This document shows positions 22,567 through 42,184 of a stretch of 64,000 nucleotides of DNA, piece after piece. This stretch comes from a bacterium (GTDB lineage: Bacteria > Lernaellota > Lernaellaia > JACKCT01). Where the stretch lies: positions 1 through 64,000 of the forward strand of contig JAIOHV010000034.1 of assembly GCA_019912885.1 (NCBI GenBank). Direction: 5' to 3'. The notes beneath the pieces were generated by a model. That model was not told the origin of the DNA and ran no database searches. It saw nothing but the letters and a program-made list of their open reading frames with translations. The translations under genes were made by a program, and so were the position numbers. Position 1 is the stretch's first letter, and the number at the start of each line of letters is the position of its first letter.

Positions 22567-24144
22567 ATGCGCGACGCGCGCCTGTTTGTCTTGTTTGTCG
22601 GACTGGCCGCCATAGTCCTTCTCGTGGCGTCTTGCGGCTGCGGCGACGATGACGATGACGACGCCGGCTCGCCCGTCGATGACGACGCGGCGGACGACGA
22701 CGACTCGGCTTCCGGCGATGACGACGCGGACGACGATGGGAACGACGATGCCGTCGATGACGACGACGCGGGCGACGACGATGTCGACGATGACGCCGCG
22801 GACGACGACACCGGGGACGACGACGGGCAATGGGAGCCGTCCGCTGTCGTGCCGATCGACGTTTACGGCACGCCCCGTGGCTACACGGTCGCGCGCGGCA
22901 TGATCCACATTCACAATGTCTATTCGCACGACGGTTGCGATAATCGCCCGCTGCCCGGCGGCGTCCCAAACGCCAAATGCCTCGCGCAGTTCCGCGAAGC
23001 GATTTGCCTGACAAACCAGCAGTTCATCATGTTGACCGATCACGGGACGCACTTCGGCGAATTCGATTTCCCGGCGGTCCTGCTGCATGACGAAGCGGCG
23101 GGCGACACGCTTTTATACGACGGCGACGACCCGATCGCGAATGTCGTGCATTGCGCCGACGGCAACGACGTGACGCTGATGGCCGGCAGCGAGAACAAGC
23201 TGATGCCGATCCATTTTCGCCGCATGCCCGACGGCACCGTGGCCGAACGCAAGGCGTTTCTTGGCCGCTCCGACGCCCCGGTCGTCGCCGAAATGGAGGC
23301 ACTCGGCGCGGCGGTTTTCATCGCGCACCCCGAAGGCTGGACGACCGAGGAAATCCGCGCCGTGCCGGTCACTGGCTGGGAGTTTTACAACTTGCACGCC
23401 AACATCGATCCCGGCATTCGCGCCGACGATCTCGGGCTTCCCGCGCTCAGCTTTATCCTCGATCTGTTCAAATTCATCTTCCCGTTCGAGGAGGCCGGCC
23501 ACTCCGATCTCATGCTCCTGACGTTCCTGTCGGAGAACGGGCCGGGGCTCGACCACATGGACCGCATCCTCGCCGAGCGCCGCGTCGTCGGAACGATGGG
23601 CACCGACGCGCACCGCAACGCCCTGCCGTTTCCGCTGCTCGACGGCGACCGCGCCGACAGCTACCGCCGCATGATGCGCTGGTTCGCGAACTACGCGCTT
23701 ATCGACGAGGCGACGCCCGAAGGCTACATCGACGCGATCGACAACGGCCGCATGTACGGTGCATTCCAGGTGTTCGGAGAGCCGGTCGGCTTCGATTTCC
23801 GCGCCGATCACGACGGCGGCGTCGCCGAGATGGGCGAAACGGTCGATCTGGCCGACGCGCCCACGCTCGTTGTCGAAGTGCCGACATTCTTCGACATGCC
23901 GTCGGGCCTTCCCGCGCCGGATTTCCGAACGCGCATCATCATGGCCGATTCCGACGGCGGCATCGTCGTCGCCGAAACGACAACCGGGGACGAACTGACG
24001 TACGACGTACTCGCACCCGGCGCGTATCGCGCGGAGGTCTACGTCACGCCGCACCACCTCGAGCCATGGCTCGGCGCCGACGCGGCGGACTTCATCCACG
24101 AATATCCGCTGATCTACGGCAACGCGATCTACGTGACGGATTAG
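22567..24144 (+). CDS. Lipoprotein with poly-Asp tether and PHP-type phosphoesterase domain
   Basis: The 525-residue lipoprotein has a signal peptide with lipobox LVASC (Cys 22), an Asp-rich tether of about 65 residues and a catalytic domain of PHP type. Metal-binding motifs are visible: MIHIHNVYSHDG (about 111-122), LTDHGTHFGEFD, FIAHPEGW (about 252) and GTDAHRN (about 344). A C-terminal beta domain follows (DAPTLVVEVPTFF onward). PHP proteins hydrolyse phosphoesters, but secreted members are poorly known. GGAGG precedes ATG 22567. Its anchor-plus-tether plan is shared with the GDPD lipoprotein at 55525. Confidence 0.8.
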   Translation: MRDARLFVLFVGLAAIVLLVASCGCGDDDDDDAGSPVDDDAADDDDSASGDDDADDDGNDDAVDDDDAGDDDVDDDAADDDTGDDDGQWEPSAVVPIDVYGTPRGYTVARGMIHIHNVYSHDGCDNRPLPGGVPNAKCLAQFREAICLTNQQFIMLTDHGTHFGEFDFPAVLLHDEAAGDTLLYDGDDPIANVVHCADGNDVTLMAGSENKLMPIHFRRMPDGTVAERKAFLGRSDAPVVAEMEALGAAVFIAHPEGWTTEEIRAVPVTGWEFYNLHANIDPGIRADDLGLPALSFILDLFKFIFPFEEAGHSDLMLLTFLSENGPGLDHMDRILAERRVVGTMGTDAHRNALPFPLLDGDRADSYRRMMRWFANYALIDEATPEGYIDAIDNGRMYGAFQVFGEPVGFDFRADHDGGVAEMGETVDLADAPTLVVEVPTFFDMPSGLPAPDFRTRIIMADSDGGIVVAETTTGDELTYDVLAPGAYRAEVYVTPHHLEPWLGADAADFIHEYPLIYGNAIYVTD

Positions 24145-24319: not shown

Positions 24320-25717
24320 CTAAATAAAATCTTCCTTCGGCGGCCGCAGCAAAAACGAGCCCAACCGCATCAGGCTTTCCAGCGCGTCGCGCGGGTGCGA
24401 CAGGATGCGCGAAAGGCGCCTCAACACATATCCCGGACGCAGATAAAACCGCCGGTAAAACTCGCGCTCGCGGCCGAGCACGCGCGCGTACGCGTCGCGG
24501 TCGCGCGGCACGAATTCGAACGGCGTGGGGTGGTCGATCTGGTCGCGCCGCTCGTCGAATAGCGCCGTGCCGGGGTGGTATTGCAGGCGCGTCACGATGA
24601 CGAAATCAACCTTCGCGCGACTGGCAAGACGAACGCTCTCCTCGAAATCCTCGCGCGTCTCGGCCGGGTCGCCCACGATGAAAAACGCGGACACCTCGAT
24701 ACCGGCGTCGTGCATCGTCTTCACGCCCGGCGCGACGGCGGCGAGATCAAGACCCTTTTTGTAGCCGTCCACAACGCCCTGCGCGCCGGACTCCACGCCC
24801 ACGTAAACGCGCTTGCACCCCGCGCGGCCCATCGCCTGCGCGCTCGCGGGCGTCACGTGGTCAATGCGCGCGAGCGCCGACCACGCAAGCCTCCCTTCGG
24901 CGGCAAGCCCTTCGCAGATCGCGATCGCGCGCGCCTCGTCGATGTTGAACGTGTCGTCCATGAAACGCAGGTTGCGGATACCAAGGTCACGGATGACGTG
25001 GCGCGCCTCGGTAAGCACGGATTCCGCCGAACGCTTCGACAGCCTCCGCCCGAATGTCCGCACGCAGAACGTGCACGGATACGGGCAGCCGCGCGCGGTG
25101 AAAAGCGCGGCGAGCCGTCGGCCGACGAGCACCTCGCTGTAGTCGTTGGCGTCCACCGCCGCGTGATCCGGGAAGGGCAGGTCGTCGAAATTCGGCACCG
25201 GCTTTGCGGGCGGGCCCTCGACGATCGCATCGCCGCGCCGCGTCCACACGCCCGCCACGTCGTCGGCCGCGCCGCCGTTTGACCACGCGTTCAAAAGTTC
25301 GGCGAACGCGATCTCCGGCTCGCCAAGCACGATCGCGTCAAGGTCGGAGTGTTCCATAACCTCGCGCGGCATCACCGTGGGCAGATAGCCCATCGCCACC
25401 ACACGCGCGCCCGTCGCCGCGCGCACGCCCCGGCAAAACTCCAGGTCATCCTCGATCGTCGCGAAGCCGAGCTGCGCGAACACGACATCCGGCGCCGTCT
25501 CCGCGACACGGGCGATTGCGCTTTCCCGCGTCCAGGATTTCGCCACCGCGTCGAGCACGTGCGTTGCCGCGCCGGCGAACGCGCGCGCGGACGACGCGGC
25601 GTAGAGCAGATCGGTCGGCGGCATGAGGAAGTTCGGCGCGAAGTACGACGCCGTGAAGCGTCGCTGCACACGCCGGCGGAAGGGCGGATTGACGAAGGTG
25701 ACGCGCGGCGCGCTCAA
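24320..25717 (-). CDS. Cobalamin-binding-domain radical SAM protein
   Basis: The 465-residue protein is a B12-binding/radical SAM fusion of the BchE-like kind. The N-terminal Rossmann part (VTFVNPPFRRR ... DVVFAQLGF ... MGYLPTVMP) leads to the radical SAM cluster motif CPYPCTFC (about 211-218), then RFMDDTFNID, GVESGAQGVVDGYKKG and FFIVGDPAETREDFEES, and a C-terminal FYRRFYLRPGYVLRRL segment. Such enzymes typically methylate or rearrange unreactive carbon atoms; the substrate is unknown. It is the last gene of a leftward set that includes a carbamoyltransferase and glycan enzymes. Confidence 0.88.
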   Translation of the reverse strand: MSAPRVTFVNPPFRRRVQRRFTASYFAPNFLMPPTDLLYAASSARAFAGAATHVLDAVAKSWTRESAIARVAETAPDVVFAQLGFATIEDDLEFCRGVRAATGARVVAMGYLPTVMPREVMEHSDLDAIVLGEPEIAFAELLNAWSNGGAADDVAGVWTRRGDAIVEGPPAKPVPNFDDLPFPDHAAVDANDYSEVLVGRRLAALFTARGCPYPCTFCVRTFGRRLSKRSAESVLTEARHVIRDLGIRNLRFMDDTFNIDEARAIAICEGLAAEGRLAWSALARIDHVTPASAQAMGRAGCKRVYVGVESGAQGVVDGYKKGLDLAAVAPGVKTMHDAGIEVSAFFIVGDPAETREDFEESVRLASRAKVDFVIVTRLQYHPGTALFDERRDQIDHPTPFEFVPRDRDAYARVLGREREFYRRFYLRPGYVLRRLSRILSHPRDALESLMRLGSFLLRPPKEDFI

Positions 25718-25872
25718 GGCGGTCCCTCGGCAAGGTGCGTCGCGAGAGCCTGTCGCCGCTTTTCGTAATCCGCGCGACGCACCCGGTTCTGAATCACGCC
25801 GCCGATGCCGAGTAGTACGCCGACGGGGATCATCACGATCGCGATCAGGTATCGCAGGATGAGCTTAACCAA
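25714..25872 (-). CDS. Tiny single-pass membrane protein
   Basis: Translation from TTG at 25872 gives about 52 residues: one hydrophobic helix (ILRYLIAIVMIPVGVLLGIGGVI) then a basic tail. GGGAGG lies ten bases upstream of the TTG. The gene overlaps the PP-loop gene stop by 8 bases and the radical SAM start by 4, so coupled translation supports it. A longer frame upstream lies inside the PP-loop gene. Confidence 0.55.
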   Translation of the reverse strand: MVKLILRYLIAIVMIPVGVLLGIGGVIQNRVRRADYEKRRQALATHLAEGPP

Positions 25873-26725
25873 GGACGAGATCCTCCCATGTCGCGGGCAG
25901 ATGCTCCGTCGCGCGCCGCAAATCCTCGATGCGCGCGGAAAGAGCGGGCGACGCACCCGCGAAACGCGCGGCGACGAGATTGTCGATCAGCGGATATCGC
26001 TCTTCGCTGTATTCGAACGTGTCCACCTCGCGCGCGTCACGCGACGCTTCGCCGTAAAACAGCTTGGCGTACACGTCCGCGGGCACGCCGACCGCGCAGG
26101 TCGGTTGCGTGTCGTACAATATGAACTGGCGCTTCAGGTGCGGCGTCGTCGAGACCCCGACCTCGTCCAGGCGGATGTCGCTGTGCGCCTCGTGATAGAT
26201 CGGCGAATAGTGGCGGATGCCATAACGCTCCCAGAGCCGCCGCCGGTTCGCGCGGATAAACCCGTCGAGCTGTTCGGGGATCGACGACTGCTCCATGATC
26301 GAACCGTCCGCCACGATCGGAATGCCGTTTTCCAGGTTGTAGATCAAGGCCGCCGCGTGCATCGACATGCGGCACCCCAGGCACACGAGCGCGGTGAGGT
26401 TGAAGCCGTATTTTTTCAGATCCTCTTTCGGGCGCCCGAGCAGAATGCGGCGAATGGCGTCCTTGATCGGAATGATCTCGTGCGTCACGCGGTCCGTGCC
26501 GAGTGCGTTGCGCAACGCGTCCGCGTGGCGCTTCGAATTTTCGATAAAAAAGATGAAGCCGTTATCGAACGTCAGAAGCGTCACGTGACGCACGCGTTCC
26601 GCCACTCGCCACGCGGCGAACGTCGAATCGGTGCCGCCGGAAAACAGGACGGTTGCCCGTTCGGCGACGAAATTCTCGGTACTTTGCGCAACCACCGGTC
26701 TCTCCCCGAAAGAAAGCGACATCAT
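25865..26725 (-). CDS. PP-loop ATP pyrophosphatase-superfamily protein
   Basis: This 286-residue protein has the nucleotide-binding PP-loop SGGTDST (residues 29-35), which adenylates carbonyl oxygens in enzymes that form amides or thiolate nucleosides. LVCLGCRMSMHAA in the middle gives a Cys pair that could bind metal or carry sulfur, and VADGSIMEQSSIPEQ may contact substrate. It does not match LarE, QueC or TilS motifs that I know. Being next to a polysaccharide deacetylase, a GT2 and a carbamoyltransferase, it may amidate or thiolate a sugar or peptide. Confidence 0.7.
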   Translation of the reverse strand: MMSLSFGERPVVAQSTENFVAERATVLFSGGTDSTFAAWRVAERVRHVTLLTFDNGFIFFIENSKRHADALRNALGTDRVTHEIIPIKDAIRRILLGRPKEDLKKYGFNLTALVCLGCRMSMHAAALIYNLENGIPIVADGSIMEQSSIPEQLDGFIRANRRRLWERYGIRHYSPIYHEAHSDIRLDEVGVSTTPHLKRQFILYDTQPTCAVGVPADVYAKLFYGEASRDAREVDTFEYSEERYPLIDNLVAARFAGASPALSARIEDLRRATEHLPATWEDLVLG

Positions 26726-26773
26726 AGCGACCGCGCGGCAGGTGCGTCAAAAAAAGCCGTCAGCGATCAGCGG

Positions 26774-28036
26774 TCAGCCGCCGGCAATCTTCAATCTTCG
26801 ATTCGCCGCGGCTTCCGCGCACGTCATCGACGCCATCGCGCCCTCTGACGATAAACCGCGCCACAGCCGCTCGAACACATCCGCAAAGCCGAAGGGGTAA
26901 TACGCCTTGCAGGCGTGTGTGCAGAGAACGGCCACTCCGCCGGCGGCAAAAACGCGTTCGGCCTTCGCGGTCCACGTCGCCACGGGATCGCGTTCCCCGA
27001 GCGTGAACAGGCGATCGTCGAGCGGCAGTGTGATCGGCAGTTCGCGGATGCCCGTCGCGTCAAACGGCGCCAACGCGCCGCAGCCGTGGTGGACGCCCGC
27101 CTCGCCATACACGTCCGTGTCGGGTATCGACGAGTCGTACGCGAACAGCTCACCGAGTGCGCGTCGCAACGCCCGCGACGTCAGAAGGCTCGGTGAGCGA
27201 AATCCGCGCACGTTGTAGCGTTCGATGTCGTACGCAAAACCGCGAAGGTGGAAAAGATAATCCGTGGGAGCGATCGAAAGATGCCGGTTGTCGTGACGAA
27301 TGCCGTGAAAGCCGATCTCGTGCCCGAGCGCCGCGAGTCGGTCGAACACGGGCCGGTGCGCGCGGATCATCTCCGCCGGCGCGAAAAACGTCGCGCTAAC
27401 GCACGCATCCGCCTCGACCGCGGCGATTTCTTCCGCGAACGGAAGCTGCTCCGCCCCGTCGATGTCGTGGCTAAACACGACGACGCACGGATTCGTTCGT
27501 GCCCTGTTCACGACGACCGCCCCGCACGCGCGCGCAATATCGGCGAGCAGCGCCAGCGCGCCCCACGTCGGCCACACGCCGGCGGTCACCTCCGGATGCA
27601 ACCGCCGGCGCGCGCCGACAAGCCAACGGTGCGCGCGCACGAGCGCCTGTTCGGGGATGCGCCGGTAATGAAACGGTAAGAACGTCGTCACCGAACGCGC
27701 CGGGCGCGCGTAATCGTCGTCGAGCAGATCGTCCGCCGCGCGAGCGAGATCGGTCGCAAGTCGCACGCCGCCGCCGCGCACCGCCAACGGTCGCCAGATG
27801 TCGCCGATGCGCGCCTCGTACAGCGTATCGCCGCGCGGTGCGTCGAAATCGAACTCGCGCAGATAAAGCGGCGTGCCGACGCCGGTGTCGCCAAAGGCGC
27901 GCACGGGCACGCGTACCGCGTAACCGTCCGCGAGCGGCGCGAGCGCGTCGGTTTCGTGCAGCCGCGCCTCGAACGCGCGCGCAAGCGCATCAACCGCCGC
28001 ATCGCCGAGCACCGAGCGCGCGGGACCCATCGTCAT
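26774..28036 (-). CDS. Polysaccharide deacetylase-family protein
   Basis: The product has about 420 residues. A unique N-terminal part of about 170 residues is followed by a NodB-like deacetylase domain: VVVFSHDIDGAEQLPFAEE (metal-binding Asp-Asp motif), FFAPAEMIRAHRP, GHEIGFHGIRHDNRHLS (HxxxH motif) and FRSPSLLTSRALRRAL. Such enzymes remove N- or O-acetyl groups from glycans. No signal peptide is seen, so it may act on a lipid-linked precursor in the cytoplasm. ATG at 28036 overlaps the GT2 stop as ATGA; upstream in-frame sequence lies inside the GT2 gene. Confidence 0.82.
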   Translation of the reverse strand: MTMGPARSVLGDAAVDALARAFEARLHETDALAPLADGYAVRVPVRAFGDTGVGTPLYLREFDFDAPRGDTLYEARIGDIWRPLAVRGGGVRLATDLARAADDLLDDDYARPARSVTTFLPFHYRRIPEQALVRAHRWLVGARRRLHPEVTAGVWPTWGALALLADIARACGAVVVNRARTNPCVVVFSHDIDGAEQLPFAEEIAAVEADACVSATFFAPAEMIRAHRPVFDRLAALGHEIGFHGIRHDNRHLSIAPTDYLFHLRGFAYDIERYNVRGFRSPSLLTSRALRRALGELFAYDSSIPDTDVYGEAGVHHGCGALAPFDATGIRELPITLPLDDRLFTLGERDPVATWTAKAERVFAAGGVAVLCTHACKAYYPFGFADVFERLWRGLSSEGAMASMTCAEAAANRRLKIAGG

Positions 28037-28734
28037 CGCTTCACCAGAAACGCAAAAAGCTCCGCGAGCGTTTTCACAACGACCGACGGTTTGCTGCCCT
28101 TGGCGACGCCCGCCGCGCGCCGGCGAAAGTCCGATTCGATCTCCACCACGGCAAGCCCCAACCGCGCCGCGCGCGCCAGAAGCTCCTGCTGCATGAACAC
28201 GCCACGCGCGCGAAGGGGCAGGGGCGCGATGGAGCGCCGGCGCCACAGATGCACCCAGTTCACGTCGCGAAAATTCTGCCGGAACACGAGATTGACGATC
28301 GCCAGGTACGCGCGCGACTGCAACCGCCGCCACGCGCCATACGGCGCGCGATCGCGACGCACCCCGACGACGATATCCGCGCCGCTTGCGTCCGCGGCGT
28401 CGGCGAACACCGGGATTTCGGCGGGATCGAACTGCCCGTCCGCGGGGATGTACAGCACCAGGTCGCCCGTCGCCGCGCCAAACCCGGTGCGGATCGCCAT
28501 GCCCGCGCCCTGGTTTGTCGCGTGCCGCAACAGTCGAATGCGCCCCGCATCGGCAAGCGACGCGACCGCGTCCGCCGTGCCGTCGGCGCTGCCATCTTCG
28601 ACGACGATGATCTCGAATGCGCGCCCGCTTGCGTCCATCGCGGCGAGCGTCTCGCCCACGATGTCGCGGATTGTCGCGGCCTCATTGTACGCGGGGACAA
28701 TCACGGAAACCGACGATCGATCGCTGTCGGGCAC
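28033..28734 (-). CDS. Family 2 glycosyltransferase (dolichyl-phosphate mannosyltransferase-like)
   Basis: The 233-residue GT-A fold protein has VSVIVPAYNEAATIRDIV, EIIVVEDGSADGTAD, ATNQGAGMAIRTG and LVLYIPADGQFDPAEIP, the acceptor-side metal motif of DPM1-like enzymes. There is no C-terminal membrane domain. It probably moves a sugar from a nucleotide to a lipid phosphate or saccharide. It lies 7 bases after the carbamoyltransferase gene and overlaps the deacetylase gene. Confidence 0.88.
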   Translation of the reverse strand: MPDSDRSSVSVIVPAYNEAATIRDIVGETLAAMDASGRAFEIIVVEDGSADGTADAVASLADAGRIRLLRHATNQGAGMAIRTGFGAATGDLVLYIPADGQFDPAEIPVFADAADASGADIVVGVRRDRAPYGAWRRLQSRAYLAIVNLVFRQNFRDVNWVHLWRRRSIAPLPLRARGVFMQQELLARAARLGLAVVEIESDFRRRAAGVAKGSKPSVVVKTLAELFAFLVKR

Positions 28735-28741
28735 GGCCCGA

Positions 28742-30433
28742 TCACTTCGTCACGAGAAACGGCCCGACGAAAAGCGCGTCCAGGCCGGAAGTGAAAAGGC
28801 ATGCGAGCCCGTCCTCGAGGCTCGCGCAAATCGGCTCGCCGCGCTTGTTCAGCGAGGTGTTCACCACCATCGGAACGCGCGCGATCTCCGCGAACGCGCT
28901 CACCAGGCGGTACAGCTCGGGGTCGTGCGTCTCGCCGACCGTCTGCACGCGCACCGTGCCGTCGTCGTGCACGATGGCCGGCGCGCGGTCGACCGTCTCG
29001 GACTTCGCCATATAGACCTTGTTCATATAAGGCGTCGGGCGCGCATCGTCGAAAAACCGCGTCGCGGCGCTCTCGATGACGATCGGCGCGAAAGGCCGGA
29101 ACGGCTCGCGATACTTGATGCGCGCGTTGAGCCGATCCTTCGTCGCCGGGTCGCGCGGATCGGCCAGGATGCTCCGCGCCCCGAGCGCGCGCGGTCCGTA
29201 TTCCATCCGCCCGCTCATGCGGCCGACGATCTTGCCGCCCGCGATCGTCTCGGCCGTCGCCGTCGCGGGATCCTCGACGTGCTGATAACGCACGCCATAC
29301 GCACGCAACCGCGACTCGGCCGACGCCGCGTCGATGTCCGGACCCAGCCGATCGTCGTACGCATCGCCCGCGAGGGTGGGCGCGACACCGCCCCGCGCGC
29401 TGGCGAGCCACGCCGCCCCAAGCGGCCCGCCGCCGTCGTGCGCGGGCGGAAGCACGAACAGCTCCGCGAATGGTGTGTCGCGCTCGAGCCGCCCCATCGC
29501 CACGGCATTGAGCGCCACTCCGCCGGCGACGCAAAGCCGTGTCTCGCCCGTGCGCTCGTGAAGGATATTCGCGACGTGCGTCAACGCACGTTCGGTCGCG
29601 GTCTGTAGCGCGGCGGCGAGGTCCAGGTCGCGCTCTGTCAGCGGCGATTCGGGCGCGCGTGGCGCACCGAACTTCGCGACGAATCGATCCGACACGCGCG
29701 ACCGGCCGGGCATGTAATACGAGAACATCGAAAGATCGACCGCGAAGCCGTCATCCTCCAGGCGCACGATGTCCTCGAACGCCGCGGCGTAGCGCTCCGC
29801 GTTGCCAAGGCCCGCGAGCGCCATCACCTTGCCCTCGCCGCTGTTTGGCGAAAAGCCGAGGAACTGCGTCACCGCGGCGTAAACCGAGCCGATCGAATGC
29901 GGAAAACGCACCTCGCCGACGTTCGCGATCGCGCCGTCTTTTCCGTGCGACAGGCGGCAACTCGCTTCCTCGCCGTAGCCGTCCACGGTCAGGATCGCCG
30001 CGGATTCAAGACCCGACGCGTAAAACGCGCCCGCCGCGTGGCAGAGGTGGTGATCGAAAAACGTCGCGTCGAGCGTGCGCCCCTCGAGCTCGATCGAAAG
30101 GCGCGTCGCCTCGCCCGCGACCGCCTCGGGCGTCATGGCAAGGAGCCTGGCGGGGATGATGTCGAGGTATTCGCGATGGTCACGGAACATCGCCTCGCGC
30201 CGCCGATTCGGGTGGAATAGGTGCGCGCCCGCGTTCCAGGACACCGCCACCGCGTCCACCTCGGCCAGGCGCAAGCCCGCGAAATCAAGAACGAATTGGA
30301 TCGATCGGCGAGGGAACGCGCCGGAGTGCTTCACGCGATCGAAGCGCTCCTCGAGCGCCGCGGCCACGACGCGGCCGTCGATGACGAGAGCCGCCGCCGC
30401 GTCCGTGGAGAAATTCAGGCCAAGGACCCGCAA
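28742..30433 (-). CDS. Carbamoyltransferase (NodU/CmcH/TobZ family)
   Basis: The 563-residue two-domain enzyme transfers a carbamoyl group from carbamoyl phosphate, via carbamoyl-AMP, to a hydroxyl of a sugar or other metabolite. The Kae1-like N-terminal part shows LGLNFSTDAAAALVIDG, EERFDRVKHSGAFPRRSI, FFDHHLCHAAGAFYASG and TVDGYGEEAS; the C-terminal part shows RMEYGPRALGARSILADPRD, YREPFRPFAPIV and VVNTSLN. Length is typical. As first gene of the leftward set it probably decorates the glycan made by the neighbouring GT2 and deacetylase. Confidence 0.93.
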   Translation of the reverse strand: MRVLGLNFSTDAAAALVIDGRVVAAALEERFDRVKHSGAFPRRSIQFVLDFAGLRLAEVDAVAVSWNAGAHLFHPNRRREAMFRDHREYLDIIPARLLAMTPEAVAGEATRLSIELEGRTLDATFFDHHLCHAAGAFYASGLESAAILTVDGYGEEASCRLSHGKDGAIANVGEVRFPHSIGSVYAAVTQFLGFSPNSGEGKVMALAGLGNAERYAAAFEDIVRLEDDGFAVDLSMFSYYMPGRSRVSDRFVAKFGAPRAPESPLTERDLDLAAALQTATERALTHVANILHERTGETRLCVAGGVALNAVAMGRLERDTPFAELFVLPPAHDGGGPLGAAWLASARGGVAPTLAGDAYDDRLGPDIDAASAESRLRAYGVRYQHVEDPATATAETIAGGKIVGRMSGRMEYGPRALGARSILADPRDPATKDRLNARIKYREPFRPFAPIVIESAATRFFDDARPTPYMNKVYMAKSETVDRAPAIVHDDGTVRVQTVGETHDPELYRLVSAFAEIARVPMVVNTSLNKRGEPICASLEDGLACLFTSGLDALFVGPFLVTK

Positions 30434-30573: not shown

Positions 30574-31647
30574 ATGAAACGCCCCATCGATATCCTTCGC
30601 CGGTTGCCGAAGTTTTCCCGGTACCTGGTCAAAAAGCCGCTGTTTGCGTGGCAGGCCCTCGACAACATGCGGCGGACGCGGCGCGGCGAACTCACCCTGA
30701 ACGCGCTCGAATACGCGGTCGTCATGAGCTGCAACGCGGCGTGCCCCAAGTGCTCGTCCGACAAGATGCAGGACAAGGGCCGCCCGCGCCTTTCTCACGA
30801 GAAGATCCGCGAGCTGGCCGACACCGCCCGCAGGCTTGGCACCTACGAGGTCAACTTCACCGGCGGCGAGCCGACCCTCGACAAGAACCTCGAGGACATC
30901 GTCAGCTACTTCCACCCCGAACGCACGTTCCTCGGGCTCAACACGCACGGCGGCTTCCTCACGCCCGAACGCATCCGGAGCCTGGCCGAGGCGGGGCTCG
31001 ATCTCATCAAGTTCAGCCTCGATTCCCCGGACCCCCACGAGCACGACACCTGGCGCGGCATCGAAGGCCTGTGGAAGCACAACTTCGAGCTTGTCGATTT
31101 CATCAACCGCGAGATGCCCGGCCTGCGCAGCCACTTTTGCATGACGGCGACGCGCGAGCTGGTCGATTCGGGCAAGGTCGTCGAGGCGCTCAAGCTCGCG
31201 AAAGAGCACGATGTCACCATCGGCTACGTGCTGCCGACGGCCGTCGGGCGGTGGGACAACCATCGCGAGGTGTCGCTTTCGCCCGAGCAGCGCGCTCGGC
31301 TGAACGAGCTGCAAAAAGATCCCAGCGTCTTCGTGCACGCGAACGTCGGCAACGGCCCGTACGAGTGCCCTTGCGGCGTCAAGGAAATCTACGTCAACTC
31401 GTATGGCGACGTGATCCCGTGCCCGTACATCCAGATCAGCTTCGGCAACGTGAAGGACGAGCCGCTCGACGCCATCCTCGCGCGCATGAGCGGATGGAGC
31501 GAGTTCCGCGAAGGCGCCAGCATGTGCCGCAGCTCCGAGGACGAGCGCTTCATCGACACCTACATCGAGCCGCTCAAACAACATCCCGTCCTGCCGCTGC
31601 CCTTTGACAAACACCCCGCCATCGCGCCGGAGGACATGCGGGCGTAA
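30574..31647 (+). CDS. Radical SAM/SPASM-type protein
   Basis: The 357-residue protein begins with a basic, partly hydrophobic segment and then the radical SAM motif SCNAACPKC (near 51-59), NFTGGEPTLDKN, LGLNTHGGFLTPERI and KFSLDSPDP. The C-terminal part has Cys at ECPCGVKEIYVNSYGDVIPCPYIQISFGNV, the pattern of a SPASM/twitch auxiliary cluster. Such enzymes modify peptides or sugars or act as MoaA relatives; the substrate is unknown. ATG at 30574 was chosen for the GAAGG ahead of it and the start-proximal hairpin; it stands alone on the plus strand. Confidence 0.82.
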   Translation: MKRPIDILRRLPKFSRYLVKKPLFAWQALDNMRRTRRGELTLNALEYAVVMSCNAACPKCSSDKMQDKGRPRLSHEKIRELADTARRLGTYEVNFTGGEPTLDKNLEDIVSYFHPERTFLGLNTHGGFLTPERIRSLAEAGLDLIKFSLDSPDPHEHDTWRGIEGLWKHNFELVDFINREMPGLRSHFCMTATRELVDSGKVVEALKLAKEHDVTIGYVLPTAVGRWDNHREVSLSPEQRARLNELQKDPSVFVHANVGNGPYECPCGVKEIYVNSYGDVIPCPYIQISFGNVKDEPLDAILARMSGWSEFREGASMCRSSEDERFIDTYIEPLKQHPVLPLPFDKHPAIAPEDMRA

Positions 31648-32436: not shown

Positions 32437-35067
32437 TCACTGAGAGATGATCGATCGAATCGCTGCCCAATCTTTTCCCTTCGGCATGACGAACAAGCAT
32501 TTCCCTTCGCTGCGGTTCGCCCATAGCTCGCCGATGTTCCGCTTCTCCTTCGAATCGTCGTTGCTCCAAAGGTGTTCGCCCTTATATTCAACGACCAGGG
32601 TACGTCCATCTTTCAGCTTCGCGACAAAGTCCGGATAGAAACGATCGGAAGAAGTCTGGAGCGAAAAAGCGAATCGGCCACGCGATACGTTTCGCACCCA
32701 AAAATCGACTGCATCGAGGGCATCGATAAATTGCCCGCACTCGAATTCTTCTTTGGTGGTGAAGTCCTCGACATCGGGATAATAATGCTTCTTGAATCTG
32801 TAATTTCCGCGATAAGTCCGATTCGCCGGATACTGGCGCGGGTCAAAACGGAAGCACAAGTCCGTCGTCACCACGAGCGGCGTCTCGAAATGCGGATCCA
32901 GAAATAGTTGGTAGGCTTCGTTTTTTGCTTCGTGCCGCAACTCGTTGATTTTTTTCTCCACAGCTCGACGAAAACGAAACTTGTCGTGAACGAGCGTCTC
33001 CAAGGGGATGCTCCGTTGGTCCACCATCGCCTGAACGAGCCTCGTGAGGAACACCCCCGTCTCCTGCGGGGAAATGTCTTGATGAGGGAAGGCGCGATCG
33101 AGCCAATACACGAGATCGGCCAACTTCCATCCCTGCCCGGACTCGTACAGCGCCATCTGATTTTGAAGCGTTCCGAGAAACTCGTATCCCACGGTGCCCT
33201 TTTCAGTGATGTCGATCGTGCCTTGCTCCGTACCGGTGCGCACCGCAGAGTAGTCGTTTTCGGAAAGAAGCGCATCGCAATTCGACAGGCTCCACGGGTG
33301 ATCGAGCAGATGTGTTTCTTCGAATTTCTCAAACATGTCGTATTGTCGGATCGCCAATTCGGGCACAGCAAACTCGATTTGCCTCTCCGACGGCGTACCA
33401 CGAACGGTCTCGGGAAACCCATTGTAAACGCGCACGGCTTTTTCAACGGCGTTCTGTCCCGCGTCGGTCTTGAAAGCTGCTTTCACTTCCTCTTGTTCAT
33501 CCCGCGTGAGCGGACCATTGATCGTGAGCGTCTTCTTTTTCGTGTCGATGGAAACCTTTTTTTGGACCTCCGGTGAAAACCGCTTTACAGAGGGCAATTC
33601 CGGCAATTCCACTGTCGCCGTGCCCATCGCCGGTCCGTGGCCGTCGAATGGCAGCTCGTCCTGGCGACCGTAGTCGGGCGCCTTGACGATCAATTCCCGG
33701 GCTTCCTGACGATCGAATCCGTTTTGGACTAGCGCATCGGTCAGCGAATTCGCCACGTCGTAGAAGTGCCGGGACGCGACGAATGCATAGGACATGTTCA
33801 AGTCCACGCGCTTCTTCCAGTCCGCTTTCGGTAAACGCATTATGCGCCCAAGAATCTGTTCCACGTAAGTTGTGGACTTCATTTCCGCGACGCTGCACAA
33901 CACGTAGGCGAATGGACAATCCCACCCCTCGCGGAGCTTTTGGACGGTCACGATGAATCGAATGGGACAGTCGTGGGCTTCGATGTCTTCCACGGATTCA
34001 AGTTCTTCTTTTTCGCCCGTGGAGACGGCAATTTGCGATCGCGGAATCCTGAAATCTTTTTCGAGCGCGTCAAGGACAACATCTACGGAAACAGTGTCCC
34101 GTGTCTTGCTTTGGGGTTGCGCTTGAATGAGCAGGATCGGGCGGATGAACTCTCCGGATTCCTGGCGCTCGAGTGCGGCGAGTTTCTCAAGTCTGACCCT
34201 GCAGGCGATAGCATCGGCGAGAAGTTCCCTCCAATCCGGCCGGGTTTCCAGACGGATCGGCATTTTTATCATTGCCTCGGCCTTTAGTTCCGCCGCCGAG
34301 GCGGTGTAAAGCACGTTGCTCGGATTCCTCTCCAGGTCCGGGGTAGCCGTAAACTCGAGAATGCAGGATGGGTTGAACCGCGCCAAGGTTTCAAATGTCA
34401 GGGGCGTCCGCGCGTTGTGGGCTTCGTCCACGATCACAATCGGACGACGCAAGCGAAGCACGTTAGCCAACGAGTGGTAAAGATTCCCGGCTTCACCTCG
34501 ATCCAGCCCCGCCAGTACCGCCTCCGGTAAGCCACTGAAATGGTCCATAAGATCGCCATTATTTTTGTAAACCCTGCGCCCCACCGTATCTTCGACCTTG
34601 AACGCTTGCATGGTGGAAACGATCACTGTCACGCCCGTGTCAAGGTCGGCGGGTTTGACGTTGAGCGCCTGTTCAACGTCAAGGACGTTCGCCCCTTTCG
34701 TCACTGATTCGAGCGCCTTCCGATAGGGGTGCTTCCGGTCCTTCAGGTTTTTCAGGGTTTGTTCGCGGATGGGATTGGACGGGACGAGCCAAAGGACCAA
34801 GGCGCTACTCGTGTGGAGAAGGTTACGGGAAGCGAGTCCAACGGCGTGACTCGCCACGAGCGTTTTGCCGCCACCTGTGGGGATTCTAATGCAGACGTAT
34901 GGCAGACCAGGAAGCTCCTTCACGGGATTATAGGAAATCCCCCGGCCGATTGTTTTCCGGGTCATCGAGTAATAGGCGGTGTCGGCGTCACGGGTACTGA
35001 CGCACTCCTCAAAGTAAGCATTCAGGGCGTCCAAGGCGAGCTGTTGGTAGTCTTTGAGGGTCAGCAT
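32437..35067 (-). CDS. res: Type III restriction enzyme, Res (helicase/nuclease) subunit
   Basis: The 876-residue subunit pairs an SF2 helicase with a C-terminal nuclease. Walker A RIPTGGGKTLVASHA (near 62), DEAH-type VDEAHNAR (near 212), EFTATPDL, and helicase motif VI-like QILGRIMRLPK are visible. The C-terminal YPDFVAKLKDGRTLVVEYKG (near 810) is a PD-(D/E)XK nuclease site. With the methylase it forms the Mod2Res1-type complex that cuts unmodified DNA after ATP-driven movement. ATG at 35067 overlaps the mod stop by 7 bases, and GAGGTGAAGG precedes it. Confidence 0.93.
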   Translation of the reverse strand: MLTLKDYQQLALDALNAYFEECVSTRDADTAYYSMTRKTIGRGISYNPVKELPGLPYVCIRIPTGGGKTLVASHAVGLASRNLLHTSSALVLWLVPSNPIREQTLKNLKDRKHPYRKALESVTKGANVLDVEQALNVKPADLDTGVTVIVSTMQAFKVEDTVGRRVYKNNGDLMDHFSGLPEAVLAGLDRGEAGNLYHSLANVLRLRRPIVIVDEAHNARTPLTFETLARFNPSCILEFTATPDLERNPSNVLYTASAAELKAEAMIKMPIRLETRPDWRELLADAIACRVRLEKLAALERQESGEFIRPILLIQAQPQSKTRDTVSVDVVLDALEKDFRIPRSQIAVSTGEKEELESVEDIEAHDCPIRFIVTVQKLREGWDCPFAYVLCSVAEMKSTTYVEQILGRIMRLPKADWKKRVDLNMSYAFVASRHFYDVANSLTDALVQNGFDRQEARELIVKAPDYGRQDELPFDGHGPAMGTATVELPELPSVKRFSPEVQKKVSIDTKKKTLTINGPLTRDEQEEVKAAFKTDAGQNAVEKAVRVYNGFPETVRGTPSERQIEFAVPELAIRQYDMFEKFEETHLLDHPWSLSNCDALLSENDYSAVRTGTEQGTIDITEKGTVGYEFLGTLQNQMALYESGQGWKLADLVYWLDRAFPHQDISPQETGVFLTRLVQAMVDQRSIPLETLVHDKFRFRRAVEKKINELRHEAKNEAYQLFLDPHFETPLVVTTDLCFRFDPRQYPANRTYRGNYRFKKHYYPDVEDFTTKEEFECGQFIDALDAVDFWVRNVSRGRFAFSLQTSSDRFYPDFVAKLKDGRTLVVEYKGEHLWSNDDSKEKRNIGELWANRSEGKCLFVMPKGKDWAAIRSIISQ

Positions 35068-36686
35068 CGGTCTACCTTCACCTCGTATGGGATTTGCCGA
35101 AAAACGACATTCGACCGTCGCAAACGTTCCGCTCCGACACGGCAACTCGTTCCGTAAACGACTTTCGGTCCGTCGTGCCGTGGCAGGGAATCAAGCACGG
35201 CGCGCGTAAGAACGTTCCCGGCGTTTGGCTTCTTGTCTTTTAGGACGCCGTTGTAAAGAAGAAAAATCGCTGTGCCTTTGTGCGCTCCAATAAAAGGCGT
35301 CATCCCCGTCACTTCTGCGACCAGCGGTGAACCCGTTTCAACAAAATAAACTTGAGATGCGAGGTCAACAAAAGAAACGTGAGCATTAATCTCGCCACAT
35401 TCATTGAATAGCGGCTTATCAATGATGCAATAATTAATGCCGCCGCCGAGTGTCGCAACTTTTGCATTCGAATCACCTGATTTTTTTGCCCTATAGCCAT
35501 TGATTGCCTTTTCAAGTCGCTTACGAGTTACATCTACGCAAATACCTTTTTCCATTTCAATCAAAATGAAATTAAGATTCATTCCCGTTTGCGCGTTTAA
35601 AGACAGCACCGCATGGCCCGTCGTGCCACTCCCCGCGAAAGAATCAAGAATAATGTCACCTGGAGAACTCGTCATTTGTACGAGTTCCTCAATAAGACGC
35701 CTCGGTTTCGGAAATGAAAAAATTTTCCCATCCCCAAACATTGCTTTAATTTCATTTGTTCCCTGTTGTGTATATATGCCTTCGATAATTGAATAGGGCT
35801 TTCTTGCCCGTTCCTCGCCCATATCGTCTTTAAGATACTGTTTGTAATTTACGGTGTATTTACCTCTTGTGTCTTTTATTACAAGCTCATCGTTCGCCAA
35901 GGCCGTCAATGTTCTCGCCTTGGACCACTGCCACTGCTTTTCTGGCCAAATTTTTTCTCTTCCATATTGAATCGCATATCTTAGATTTTCGCGATCGTCC
36001 ATGCTATTGGTAGCCAATGGCTGAAGCCTGTATGGCCCTCGTGTTTTATATTTGCTATCTTTAAATTTATAATACTTTAATATTTTTTCGTCGGGTGGAA
36101 GGGCGATTGGGTTTACCTTTGAGATATCACGCGCAAAGCACAATATGTATTCGTGTAGATTGACAATATGCTTTGATTTGGCCCCGCCTCCGTAGCTCTT
36201 TTTCCATATAATCGTTTCTAGCCGATTGCTAGCGCCGAAGATTTCGTCCATTAATAACTCTAAGTATCTGTGCTCGTTTTCGTCTACGCTAACGAAAATT
36301 AACCCATCGTCCCTTAAAAAATAATATAACAGCTTTAGTCTCGGATACATCATGCAAAGCCATTTGTCATGCCGCGAAAGATCCTCGGACTCGCGCCCGA
36401 CAATCTTCCCGAGCCACTCTCGGATTTCCGGGCTATTCACGGCGTCGTTGTAGACCCAGTTTTCATTGCCGGTGTTGTAGGGCGGATCGATGTAAATGCA
36501 CTTCACCTGCCCAGCGTAGCGCGGCAGAAGTGCCTTGAGCGCCACGAGGTTGTCGCCCTGGACGAGCAAGTTCCCACTTTCCGTATCGCCCACGGATAAG
36601 CGCGCGTCGCGCTTCAGTAGGTGGAACGGCACCTCTCGGTGATGATTCAGAACGGCTTTCTTTCCGATCCAATCAAGAGTCGGCAA
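35061..36686 (-). CDS. mod: Type III DNA methyltransferase (Mod), beta-class N6-adenine/N4-cytosine
   Basis: The 541-residue methylase has motif IV first (YIDPPYNTGN, near 64-73) and motif I late (LDSFAGSGTTGHAV, near 347), the beta-class order typical of type III Mod. The target-recognition region lies between. GC content changes inside the gene: the ends are moderately GC-rich, but about 35350-36350 is clearly AT-rich, suggesting exchange of the central part. The start is TTG at 36686 with GAGGAG upstream. It sets the recognition sequence for the Res partner. Confidence 0.92.
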   Translation of the reverse strand: MPTLDWIGKKAVLNHHREVPFHLLKRDARLSVGDTESGNLLVQGDNLVALKALLPRYAGQVKCIYIDPPYNTGNENWVYNDAVNSPEIREWLGKIVGRESEDLSRHDKWLCMMYPRLKLLYYFLRDDGLIFVSVDENEHRYLELLMDEIFGASNRLETIIWKKSYGGGAKSKHIVNLHEYILCFARDISKVNPIALPPDEKILKYYKFKDSKYKTRGPYRLQPLATNSMDDRENLRYAIQYGREKIWPEKQWQWSKARTLTALANDELVIKDTRGKYTVNYKQYLKDDMGEERARKPYSIIEGIYTQQGTNEIKAMFGDGKIFSFPKPRRLIEELVQMTSSPGDIILDSFAGSGTTGHAVLSLNAQTGMNLNFILIEMEKGICVDVTRKRLEKAINGYRAKKSGDSNAKVATLGGGINYCIIDKPLFNECGEINAHVSFVDLASQVYFVETGSPLVAEVTGMTPFIGAHKGTAIFLLYNGVLKDKKPNAGNVLTRAVLDSLPRHDGPKVVYGTSCRVGAERLRRSNVVFRQIPYEVKVDRC

Positions 36687-40749: not shown

Positions 40750-40755
40750 ATTATA
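40750..40755 (-). promoter_or_regulatory. Candidate -10 (TATAAT) for the DUF302-ackA-xfp operon
   Basis: A perfect TATAAT on the minus strand lies at the 3' end of the radical SAM gene and 43 bases before the DUF302 start. No good -35 is seen at 16-18 bases, so activation by a regulator is possible. This is inferred from the motif alone. Confidence 0.4.
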
Positions 40756-42184
40756 CCTGGGCCGAGCCGATTCGCGGTGAGGGAAAAGGCCGAATCCACG
40801 ATTTCGCGCGACGCCACAGATGCAGAATCGACAGTCGCGCGAGTTCGAGGTTCACCCACCACGTCCGGCGCACGAACAGCCGTTTCAGGACAAAACGGGG
40901 CCGGAAGTAGAATCGGCCGTAGGCTTCGTCAACGAGCGCCTGCACGCCTTCCGTCGAGAGACGGTAGTGCGGCGACGCGTCCCGGAAATTGTCCGCGCCG
41001 GTATCCCAGGAAAGGTCGAGGTCGCGCGTCATCTTCGCGCCGGCGAACGGGCGAAATATGAAGTAGATCGCGAAATCCGAATCGACCGCGATCGACGTGT
41101 CGATCGTTTCGCGCATTTCGGATTCCGTTTCGGTCGGGAAGCCCAGGATGTAGTTGGCGATCACCTCGATGCCCGCGGCGCGCGCGTTTTTCATCGCGTC
41201 GAACGCCTGGCGCACGTTGGCGCCCTTTTTCGTGAAATCGAGAACGCGGTCGTTGCCGGACTCCACGCCAAGCTCGATGCGGTAGCAGCCCGCGCGGCGC
41301 ATCAGCTTCAACAGGTCCGCGTCCATGAGATCCATACGGCTGCAGCACATCCAGTCGAATCGCTCGCCTTCGGAAAGCGCCAGCTCGCAAAAATCGCGCG
41401 TGATGCGCTTGTGGATCATGAACACGTCGTCGATGAAGCGGATGTCGTGGATGCCGTGATCGCGGCGGATTTCGCGCACCTCGTCGAGGATGCTCGCCGC
41501 GGACCGAAAGCGCATCGGCCCGGCCTCCGAACCCTGCTCGCAGAACGTGCACGTGTAGGCGCAACCGCGATGCGTGTAGATGCTGGTGCTGTGCCGCCGG
41601 CGTTTGTAGGCCGGTCCGCCGCGATACGCCTTCAGCGCGACCAGCCGGCGCGCGGGGAAGGGTGCGTCGTCCGCGCGAATCGGCGCCGGCAGCGGCGGTA
41701 CGTCCGCCCCGCGCGGCATCACACCCGGCTGGGCCGCGATCTCCGGCGCGCTCTCGACGACGCGCGCGATCGTCGTGTCCGACTCCCCGACGATCACCGC
41801 GTCGAACAGGTTCGTATCGGCCCACACGCGCGGGCGCACGGTGGCGTCGTTGCCGCCGGCCAGGATCGTCGCGGGGCGTTTGGCCGCGCCGCGCGCCCAT
41901 CCGGCGAGTTTCAGGATCGAATCGGCGCACGGCGCGAGCGTGCCGAAGGCGAGCACGTCGGCGTCCATCGACGGCCACTCGCGCATGAAGCGTTCGCGTT
42001 CGCCCTCACGATTGAGGTCGAAAACGGAAACGGCGTGACCCGCGTCCAGCAGCCTGCGCGCGGCGTAAAGCGCGCCGAGCGGCGGCAGATCCGACTGCGC
42101 CAGCTTGTCGAAAAGGTCGCCGCCGCCGGGTGACGGGTGGACGAAAACGACGCGCCGGCGCGAGTCTCGCAGGGCGGAACGCAT
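40751..42184 (-). CDS. Cobalamin-binding-domain radical SAM protein (paralogue of 24320)
   Basis: The 477-residue protein has the same plan as the gene at 24320: an N-terminal B12-like domain (VVFVHPSPGGGDL, DLNREGERERF, ADVLAFGTLAPC), the radical SAM motif CAYTCTFC (about 203-210), RFIDDVFMIHKRI, YRIELGVESGNDRV and NYILGFPTETESEM, then FYFRPRFVLKRLFVRRTWW at the end. It probably modifies an unreactive carbon in a lipid or sugar. It is just upstream of the DUF302 operon on the same strand and diverges from the sugar operon at 42270. Confidence 0.87.
   Translation of the reverse strand: MRSALRDSRRRVVFVHPSPGGGDLFDKLAQSDLPPLGALYAARRLLDAGHAVSVFDLNREGERERFMREWPSMDADVLAFGTLAPCADSILKLAGWARGAAKRPATILAGGNDATVRPRVWADTNLFDAVIVGESDTTIARVVESAPEIAAQPGVMPRGADVPPLPAPIRADDAPFPARRLVALKAYRGGPAYKRRRHSTSIYTHRGCAYTCTFCEQGSEAGPMRFRSAASILDEVREIRRDHGIHDIRFIDDVFMIHKRITRDFCELALSEGERFDWMCCSRMDLMDADLLKLMRRAGCYRIELGVESGNDRVLDFTKKGANVRQAFDAMKNARAAGIEVIANYILGFPTETESEMRETIDTSIAVDSDFAIYFIFRPFAGAKMTRDLDLSWDTGADNFRDASPHYRLSTEGVQALVDEAYGRFYFRPRFVLKRLFVRRTWWVNLELARLSILHLWRRAKSWIRPFPSPRIGSAQV

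Follow-up and report, generated by a model that had tools for sequence, protein, structure and literature searches.

We analyzed a 64,000-nucleotide stretch of DNA (hereafter the window: positions 1 to 64,000 of contig JAIOHV010000034.1, assembly GCA_019912885.1) from a bacterium of the phylum Lernaellota whose genome comprises 4.8 Mb in 230 contigs. The window carries a compact locus of seven genes, one of which encodes a PP-loop (AANH) protein. Six of them lie on the minus strand between positions 30433 and 24320, in the order given by a preliminary description of this DNA. A NodU/TobZ-type O-carbamoyltransferase (28742..30433, 563 amino acids (aa), TTG start, PF02543 and PF16861) is followed by a GT2 glycosyltransferase lacking C-terminal membrane helices (28033..28734, 233 aa, PF00535), a CE4/NodB-type polysaccharide deacetylase-like protein (26774..28036, 420 aa, PF01522 with E 1.4e-4, under the cut-off), the PP-loop protein (25865..26725, 286 aa, SGGTDS at residues 29-34, cysteines at 115, 118, and 210), a single-helix membrane protein of 52 aa with a basic C-terminal tail (25714..25872), and a B12-binding radical S-adenosylmethionine (SAM) enzyme (24320..25717, 465 aa, CxxxCxxC, PF02310 and PF04055). 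The seventh gene, missed by the preliminary description, lies divergently on the plus strand and encodes a SPASM radical SAM protein (30574..31647, 357 aa, PF04055 and PF13186). Read from the sequence, the junctions of the six minus-strand genes, from the carbamoyltransferase to the B12 radical SAM gene, measure +7, -4, +48, -8, and -4 bp; the overlapping starts reported earlier thus occur at three of the five.

The gene set is conserved within the phylum, for which all comparisons were made in a sample of seven genomes. In the genome G006, from a different family within the class, the locus L022 has all seven genes in the same order and orientation, with protein identities to the window of 42-69% (SPASM radical SAM 51%, carbamoyltransferase 58%, GT2 50%, deacetylase 42%, PP-loop 62%, membrane protein 69% over 29 residues, B12 radical SAM 57%). 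In G002, a member of the same family as the window genome but of another genus, the same set is found without the deacetylase, again with order and strand conserved. The gene of the 52-aa membrane protein is conserved in both genomes and sits between the PP-loop and radical SAM genes there too, and the divergent position of the SPASM radical SAM gene is identical in the loci L022 and L010. Over the orthologues of the phylum, identities range between 57-58% for the carbamoyltransferase, 50-60% for the GT2, and 57-63% for the B12 radical SAM enzyme. Contig C24 of G002 ends within the radical SAM gene, which is completed on contig C7 after a 98% identical overlap. Since the start of C7 duplicates the end of C24 at 98%, G002 has one locus split by the assembly, and the presence of two separate PP-loop copies is ruled out. 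A loss of the deacetylase in this genome is equally ruled out by a homologue (50% identity) at C1:153392, among unrelated neighbors. No close PP-loop copy was found in the remaining four of the seven genomes. The preliminary description proposed to compare gene order in relatives, and would have regarded the genes as neighbors by chance if none of these kept it. Because order and strand are conserved in G006 and in G002, the seven genes are a conserved functional set and not a chance neighborhood.

The PP-loop protein has only sub-threshold or marginal matches in curated libraries (DUF7411, ThiI, QueC). Its nearest solved relative is YcfA (9kq6, 9kq7), the 6-thioguanine thioamide synthetase of Erwinia amylovora, with E-values of 8.5e-26 for the profile and 4e-11 for the single sequence. 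The fold comparison of its AlphaFold model (mean predicted local distance difference test score, pLDDT, of 83) gave YcfA as well (E 2e-10, TM 0.65/0.83, the latter normalised to the target), followed by TtuA, NcsA, ThiI, and QueC (E ~1e-4 to 1e-5). The protein has three cysteines, C115 and C118 in a CxxC motif and C210. Together with SGGxDS, M122, and Q207, they are common to the 10 members aligned, which stem from the phylum and from one Myxococcota record. In a wider set of 22 members, chosen in part by SGG and CxxC, Q207 and C210 were not selection criteria and are kept in all 22. Among four members outside this filter, three have all three cysteines and one, L066, is without the second. 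Hence, the full CxxC...C pattern is found in 25 of 26 members of the family, and the third cysteine in 26 of 26. The same arrangement is found in NcsA (C142/C145/C233; PMC10067955), in LarE of T. maritima and its homologues (CXXC-C motif; PMC9283937), and in CtaC (C154/C157/C284; PMC6772006), where a three-cysteine [4Fe-4S] cluster serves the ATP-dependent replacement of oxygen by sulfur (PMC10067955, PMC9283937, PMC6772006).

Judged from its sequence, the PP-loop protein is probably a [4Fe-4S] sulfur-insertion enzyme, with the three cysteines as predicted cluster ligands. The preliminary description had regarded it as a modifier of sugars, a role that we replace, given the CxxC...C pattern and the kinship with YcfA, by that of a probable sulfur inserter. 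Therefore, the expected product changes, and so does the mass shift with which it would be sought. YcfA is the closest protein in sequence and fold and shares the PP-loop chemistry; it differs by the absence of the CxxC found in the window protein. One paper describes YcfA as part of the 6-thioguanine operon, cites a thioamide-forming reaction, and gives the NUDIX protein YcfB as its partner (PMC7994395). Unlike the YcfA operon, the scanned neighbors in the window include no NUDIX partner. With TtuA, NcsA, TtcA, LarE, and CtaC, the protein shares SGGxDS, CxxC, and the distant third cysteine, and its relatives have SufS neighbors. Overall similarity to these enzymes is weak (fold E about 1e-4, TM about 0.4), and their tRNA, nickel-pincer nucleotide (NPN), or nonribosomal peptide synthetase (NRPS) context is absent at the window locus. 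The TtuA/NcsA subfamily itself is ruled out, as the N- and C-terminal zinc-finger cysteine sets are absent from a protein with just three cysteines.

To place this family in its genomic context, we searched 386 genomes, and found it in 14. In four of these, belonging to three families all outside the phylum of the window (L059, L060, L063, and L064), the PP-loop gene is adjoined by a SufS-family cysteine desulfurase (PF00266). The best NCBIfam match of the two desulfurases scanned is SufS, at 394 and 412 bits (subfamily cut-off 475). An operon at L060:7422-11764, found also at L059, has two tandem PP-loop paralogues with the SufS-type cysteine desulfurase between them, and an Rrf2 regulator that heads it in L060. 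Within the phylum, a NodU-type carbamoyltransferase lies at most 4 kb from the PP-loop gene in 6 of 11 members, where about 1% per locus is expected (5-8 such genes per genome). Three of these six loci are of the window type and three of a second cluster type (L016, L023, L025). The latter have a divergent PP-loop gene, one or two carbamoyltransferases, a B12 radical SAM enzyme, and a multi-helix protein of 501 aa, with a GT2 that is clear in two of the three and an LPG_synthase_TM protein in L023. Outside the phylum, the low-GC genome G426 has a PP-loop gene followed by a carbamoyltransferase (39% identity, E 4e-125) at L072. Its second locus, L063, encodes in series a GT2, a SPASM radical SAM protein, an orthologue of the window B12 radical SAM enzyme, a methyltransferase, a second B12 radical SAM enzyme, a PaaK-like ligase, the PP-loop protein, a 121-aa membrane protein, and SufS. 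The orthologue is 34% identical over its full length and has the N-terminal block and the KDFI/KEDFI tail in common with the window enzyme. Such orthologues occur in 6 of the 386 genomes, five of which also have the PP-loop family (hypergeometric 2e-7, not corrected for kinship).

The window-type PP-loop protein is rare elsewhere. It was found in 1 of 195 Myxococcota genomes (L011), and a scan of contigs across genomes gave two matches. Plasmids gave two weak matches and phages none. In the Myxococcota record (L011:9917-15215), the homologue (46% identity) lies beside a Wzm/Wzt-like ATP-binding cassette (ABC) transporter with a Wzt_C domain. At L062:1962-5815, a PP-loop gene, a PaaK-like ligase, and a small membrane protein immediately follow a phage-type integrase; this position hints that the sub-module may be mobile.

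The remaining enzymes can be assigned with varying precision. The carbamoyltransferase has both domains over the cut-off (Carbam_trans_N 169 bits, Carbam_trans_C 205 bits) and a FDHHLCHA motif. Its nearest solved relatives, matched over the full length (E 1e-74 to 4e-77), are TobZ, GdmN, and the novobiocin enzyme, O-carbamoyltransferases with the same two domains and a different gene neighborhood. The GT2 scores over the cut-off of Glycos_transf_2. Because its nearest solved relatives are ArnC and dolichol-phosphate-mannose synthase, its sequence suggests a polyprenyl-phosphate acceptor; it differs from both in being devoid of membrane helices. The deacetylase falls just short for Polysacc_deac_1 (22.2 bits against a cut-off of 23.1); the motifs SHD.D, HG.RHDN, and R.P are kept in three orthologues, and the fold search with its low-confidence model (pLDDT 48.7) has CE4 structures at the top. 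The B12 radical SAM enzyme has Radical_SAM and B12-binding domains over their cut-offs. It reaches a fraction of the cut-offs of the HpnJ, BchE, and AprD4 models and also matches TokK; it is a generic B12-binding member of its class. A second B12 radical SAM gene is found elsewhere in the window (40751-42184, minus strand; 31% identity to that of the locus), and G006 also has one, upstream of its copy of the locus (L022:16165-17679).

The presence of a putative CE4 deacetylase, a GT2, and a NodU-type carbamoyltransferase in one set recalls nodB, nodC, and nodU, whose products all act on one saccharide. The Nod-factor set itself is ruled out by its NCBIfam models (160/1000 bits for NodU, 30/550 for NodC, 16/240 for NodB), and differs from the locus, which has no acyltransferase and has PP-loop and radical SAM members in addition. 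The suggestion in the preliminary description of a sugar or lipid-linked precursor, giving a decorated glycan or metabolite, is plausible from the GT2 and the putative CE4-type deacetylase; it does not extend to the role then given to the PP-loop protein.

With moderate confidence, we read the locus as a conserved glyco-tailoring pathway that includes an iron-sulfur-dependent sulfur insertion. In the scheme that we infer, where the order of steps and the class of product are putative, the seven genes would form one biosynthetic unit whose products, probably working at the inner membrane, assemble and tailor a compound containing sugar. The polyprenyl-phosphate-type GT2 would add a sugar, the putative CE4 deacetylase would expose an amine or hydroxyl, and the NodU/TobZ-type enzyme would attach an O-carbamoyl group, with the two radical SAM enzymes acting on carbon positions. 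The PP-loop protein would adenylate a carbonyl with ATP and then replace its oxygen by sulfur from the three-cysteine [4Fe-4S] cluster; this carbonyl may be that of an amide, a carbamate, or a lactam. As for the 52-residue protein, it may anchor the PP-loop protein or the radical SAM enzyme at the membrane. By analogy, the locus would work most like sulfur insertion of the CtaC/LarE kind set within a carbamoylating glyco-tailoring pathway. That the substrate contains sugar appears quite likely, and that the PP-loop protein does sulfur chemistry somewhat less so; whether the pathway is located at the membrane or envelope is close to an even call. A more specific proposal, which we put forward tentatively and hold to be rather improbable in its full form, is that of a distinct YcfA-related family of three-cysteine [4Fe-4S] PP-loop enzymes that place sulfur in a carbonyl group carried by a sugar or a lipid-linked sugar, and that might turn an O-carbamoyl group into a thiocarbamate. 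To name the carbamoyl group itself as the site of thionation is speculation.

Several observations weigh against the reading of the locus as a sulfur-inserting glyco-tailoring pathway. YcfA is without the CxxC pair (VLLGEKL at the aligned position), so its activity cannot be transferred directly to the window protein. The PP-loop relatives adjacent to desulfurases are just ~28-35% identical to it, and neither a cysteine desulfurase nor a sulfur carrier was found at the window locus; for both reasons, this adjacency is evidence for the family and not directly for the window copy. The second cysteine is missing in one family member, L066, and residues 199-206 of the model, directly before C210, are of low confidence. 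The deacetylase is not a constant member of the cluster, as it lies elsewhere in G002. The proximity probabilities ignore relatedness, and counting each cluster type once gives ~0.002 for the carbamoyltransferase link. No sequence feature names the substrate. Finally, the nucleophile of PP-loop enzymes can also be nitrogen.

The product might instead be a small secreted thio-metabolite, similar to a nucleoside or aminoglycoside, with the same sulfur step and no surface glycan or glycolipid. We consider this possible and rather unlikely. The nearest solved carbamoyltransferases (TobZ, GdmN, and the novobiocin enzyme) act on antibiotics, AprD4 and TokK, among the matches of the B12 radical SAM enzyme, belong to antibiotic pathways, and YcfA and CtaC produce thio-antimetabolites. 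However, the GT2 is similar to polyprenyl-phosphate transferases, and related clusters have membrane proteins of the GT-C type (PMT_2) or LPG_synthase_TM proteins. Moreover, NRPS, polyketide synthase (PKS), exporter, and resistance genes are all absent from the conserved set.

Somewhat less probable still is a pathway with the same glyco-tailoring logic whose PP-loop protein works with a nitrogen nucleophile, in the manner of QueC, GMP synthase, or WbpG, yielding an amide, amidine, or nitrile, while the three cysteines bind zinc or a structural cluster. QueC has the same fold and is among the weak matches of both sequence and fold, and enzymes of the WbpG type act in O-antigen pathways. Yet, the PP-loop protein has no match to the NCBIfam model of the WbpG/PseA N-acetyl sugar amidotransferases at E-values up to 0.01, it scores 18.5 bits against a cut-off of 150.3 for QueC (TIGR00364), and the locus is devoid of a glutaminase partner. 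The CxxC with a distant cysteine and the SufS neighbors in relatives form instead the pattern of sulfur insertion.

A hopanoid-like tailoring of lipids, where the GT2, the deacetylase, and the B12 radical SAM enzyme would act in series like HpnI, HpnK, and HpnJ on a polyol lipid that is then carbamoylated, seems very unlikely to us. The trio follows the same logic, and among NCBIfam models the B12 radical SAM enzyme matches HpnJ best, but at 139 bits against a cut-off of 577.6. HpnH, which catalyzes entry into hopanoid side-chain synthesis, scores under the cut-off in all seven phylum genomes, and the deacetylase appears to be CE4-type, not HpnK-type. The HpnJ and HpnH scores thus rule out a hopanoid tailoring set proper. 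That six unrelated genes became adjacent by chance is barely conceivable given the order and strand kept in G006 and, minus the deacetylase, in G002, and we found no evidence in its favor.

The locus is flanked by ordinary genes (pyruvate:ferredoxin oxidoreductase, phosphoketolase, acetate kinase, metal-efflux proteins, and a type III restriction-modification pair). The pair (ResIII and N6_N4_Mtase, 32437-36686, minus strand) lies directly beside the locus, has a G+C content (GC) of 0.46-0.57 in surroundings of ~0.65, and is probably a recent acquisition. A gene convergent with the locus (22567-24144, plus strand) encodes a lipoprotein that carries long runs of aspartate and matches no Pfam family.

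PP-loop enzymes are known to insert sulfur into tRNA, cofactors, and a few antimetabolites. Our literature search retrieved no record of an oxygen-to-sulfur step in a glycan or lipid-sugar pathway, nor, in the open-access literature (the subscription literature was not searchable), a description of this gene combination. If our reading of the locus as a sulfur-inserting glyco-tailoring pathway is true, PP-loop sulfur insertion would extend to glycans or glycolipids. Under the more specific and less probable proposal of a distinct YcfA-related family, bacteria of several little-known phyla would have an enzymatic route to thiocarbonyl-bearing glycoconjugates. On the broader reading, a YcfA-like PP-loop gene with CxxC...C, together with a NodU-type carbamoyltransferase, a B12 radical SAM enzyme, or a cysteine desulfurase, would then be a searchable marker for thio-decorated products in uncultured bacteria, and a PP-loop family that Pfam and NCBIfam models match poorly gains a testable function.

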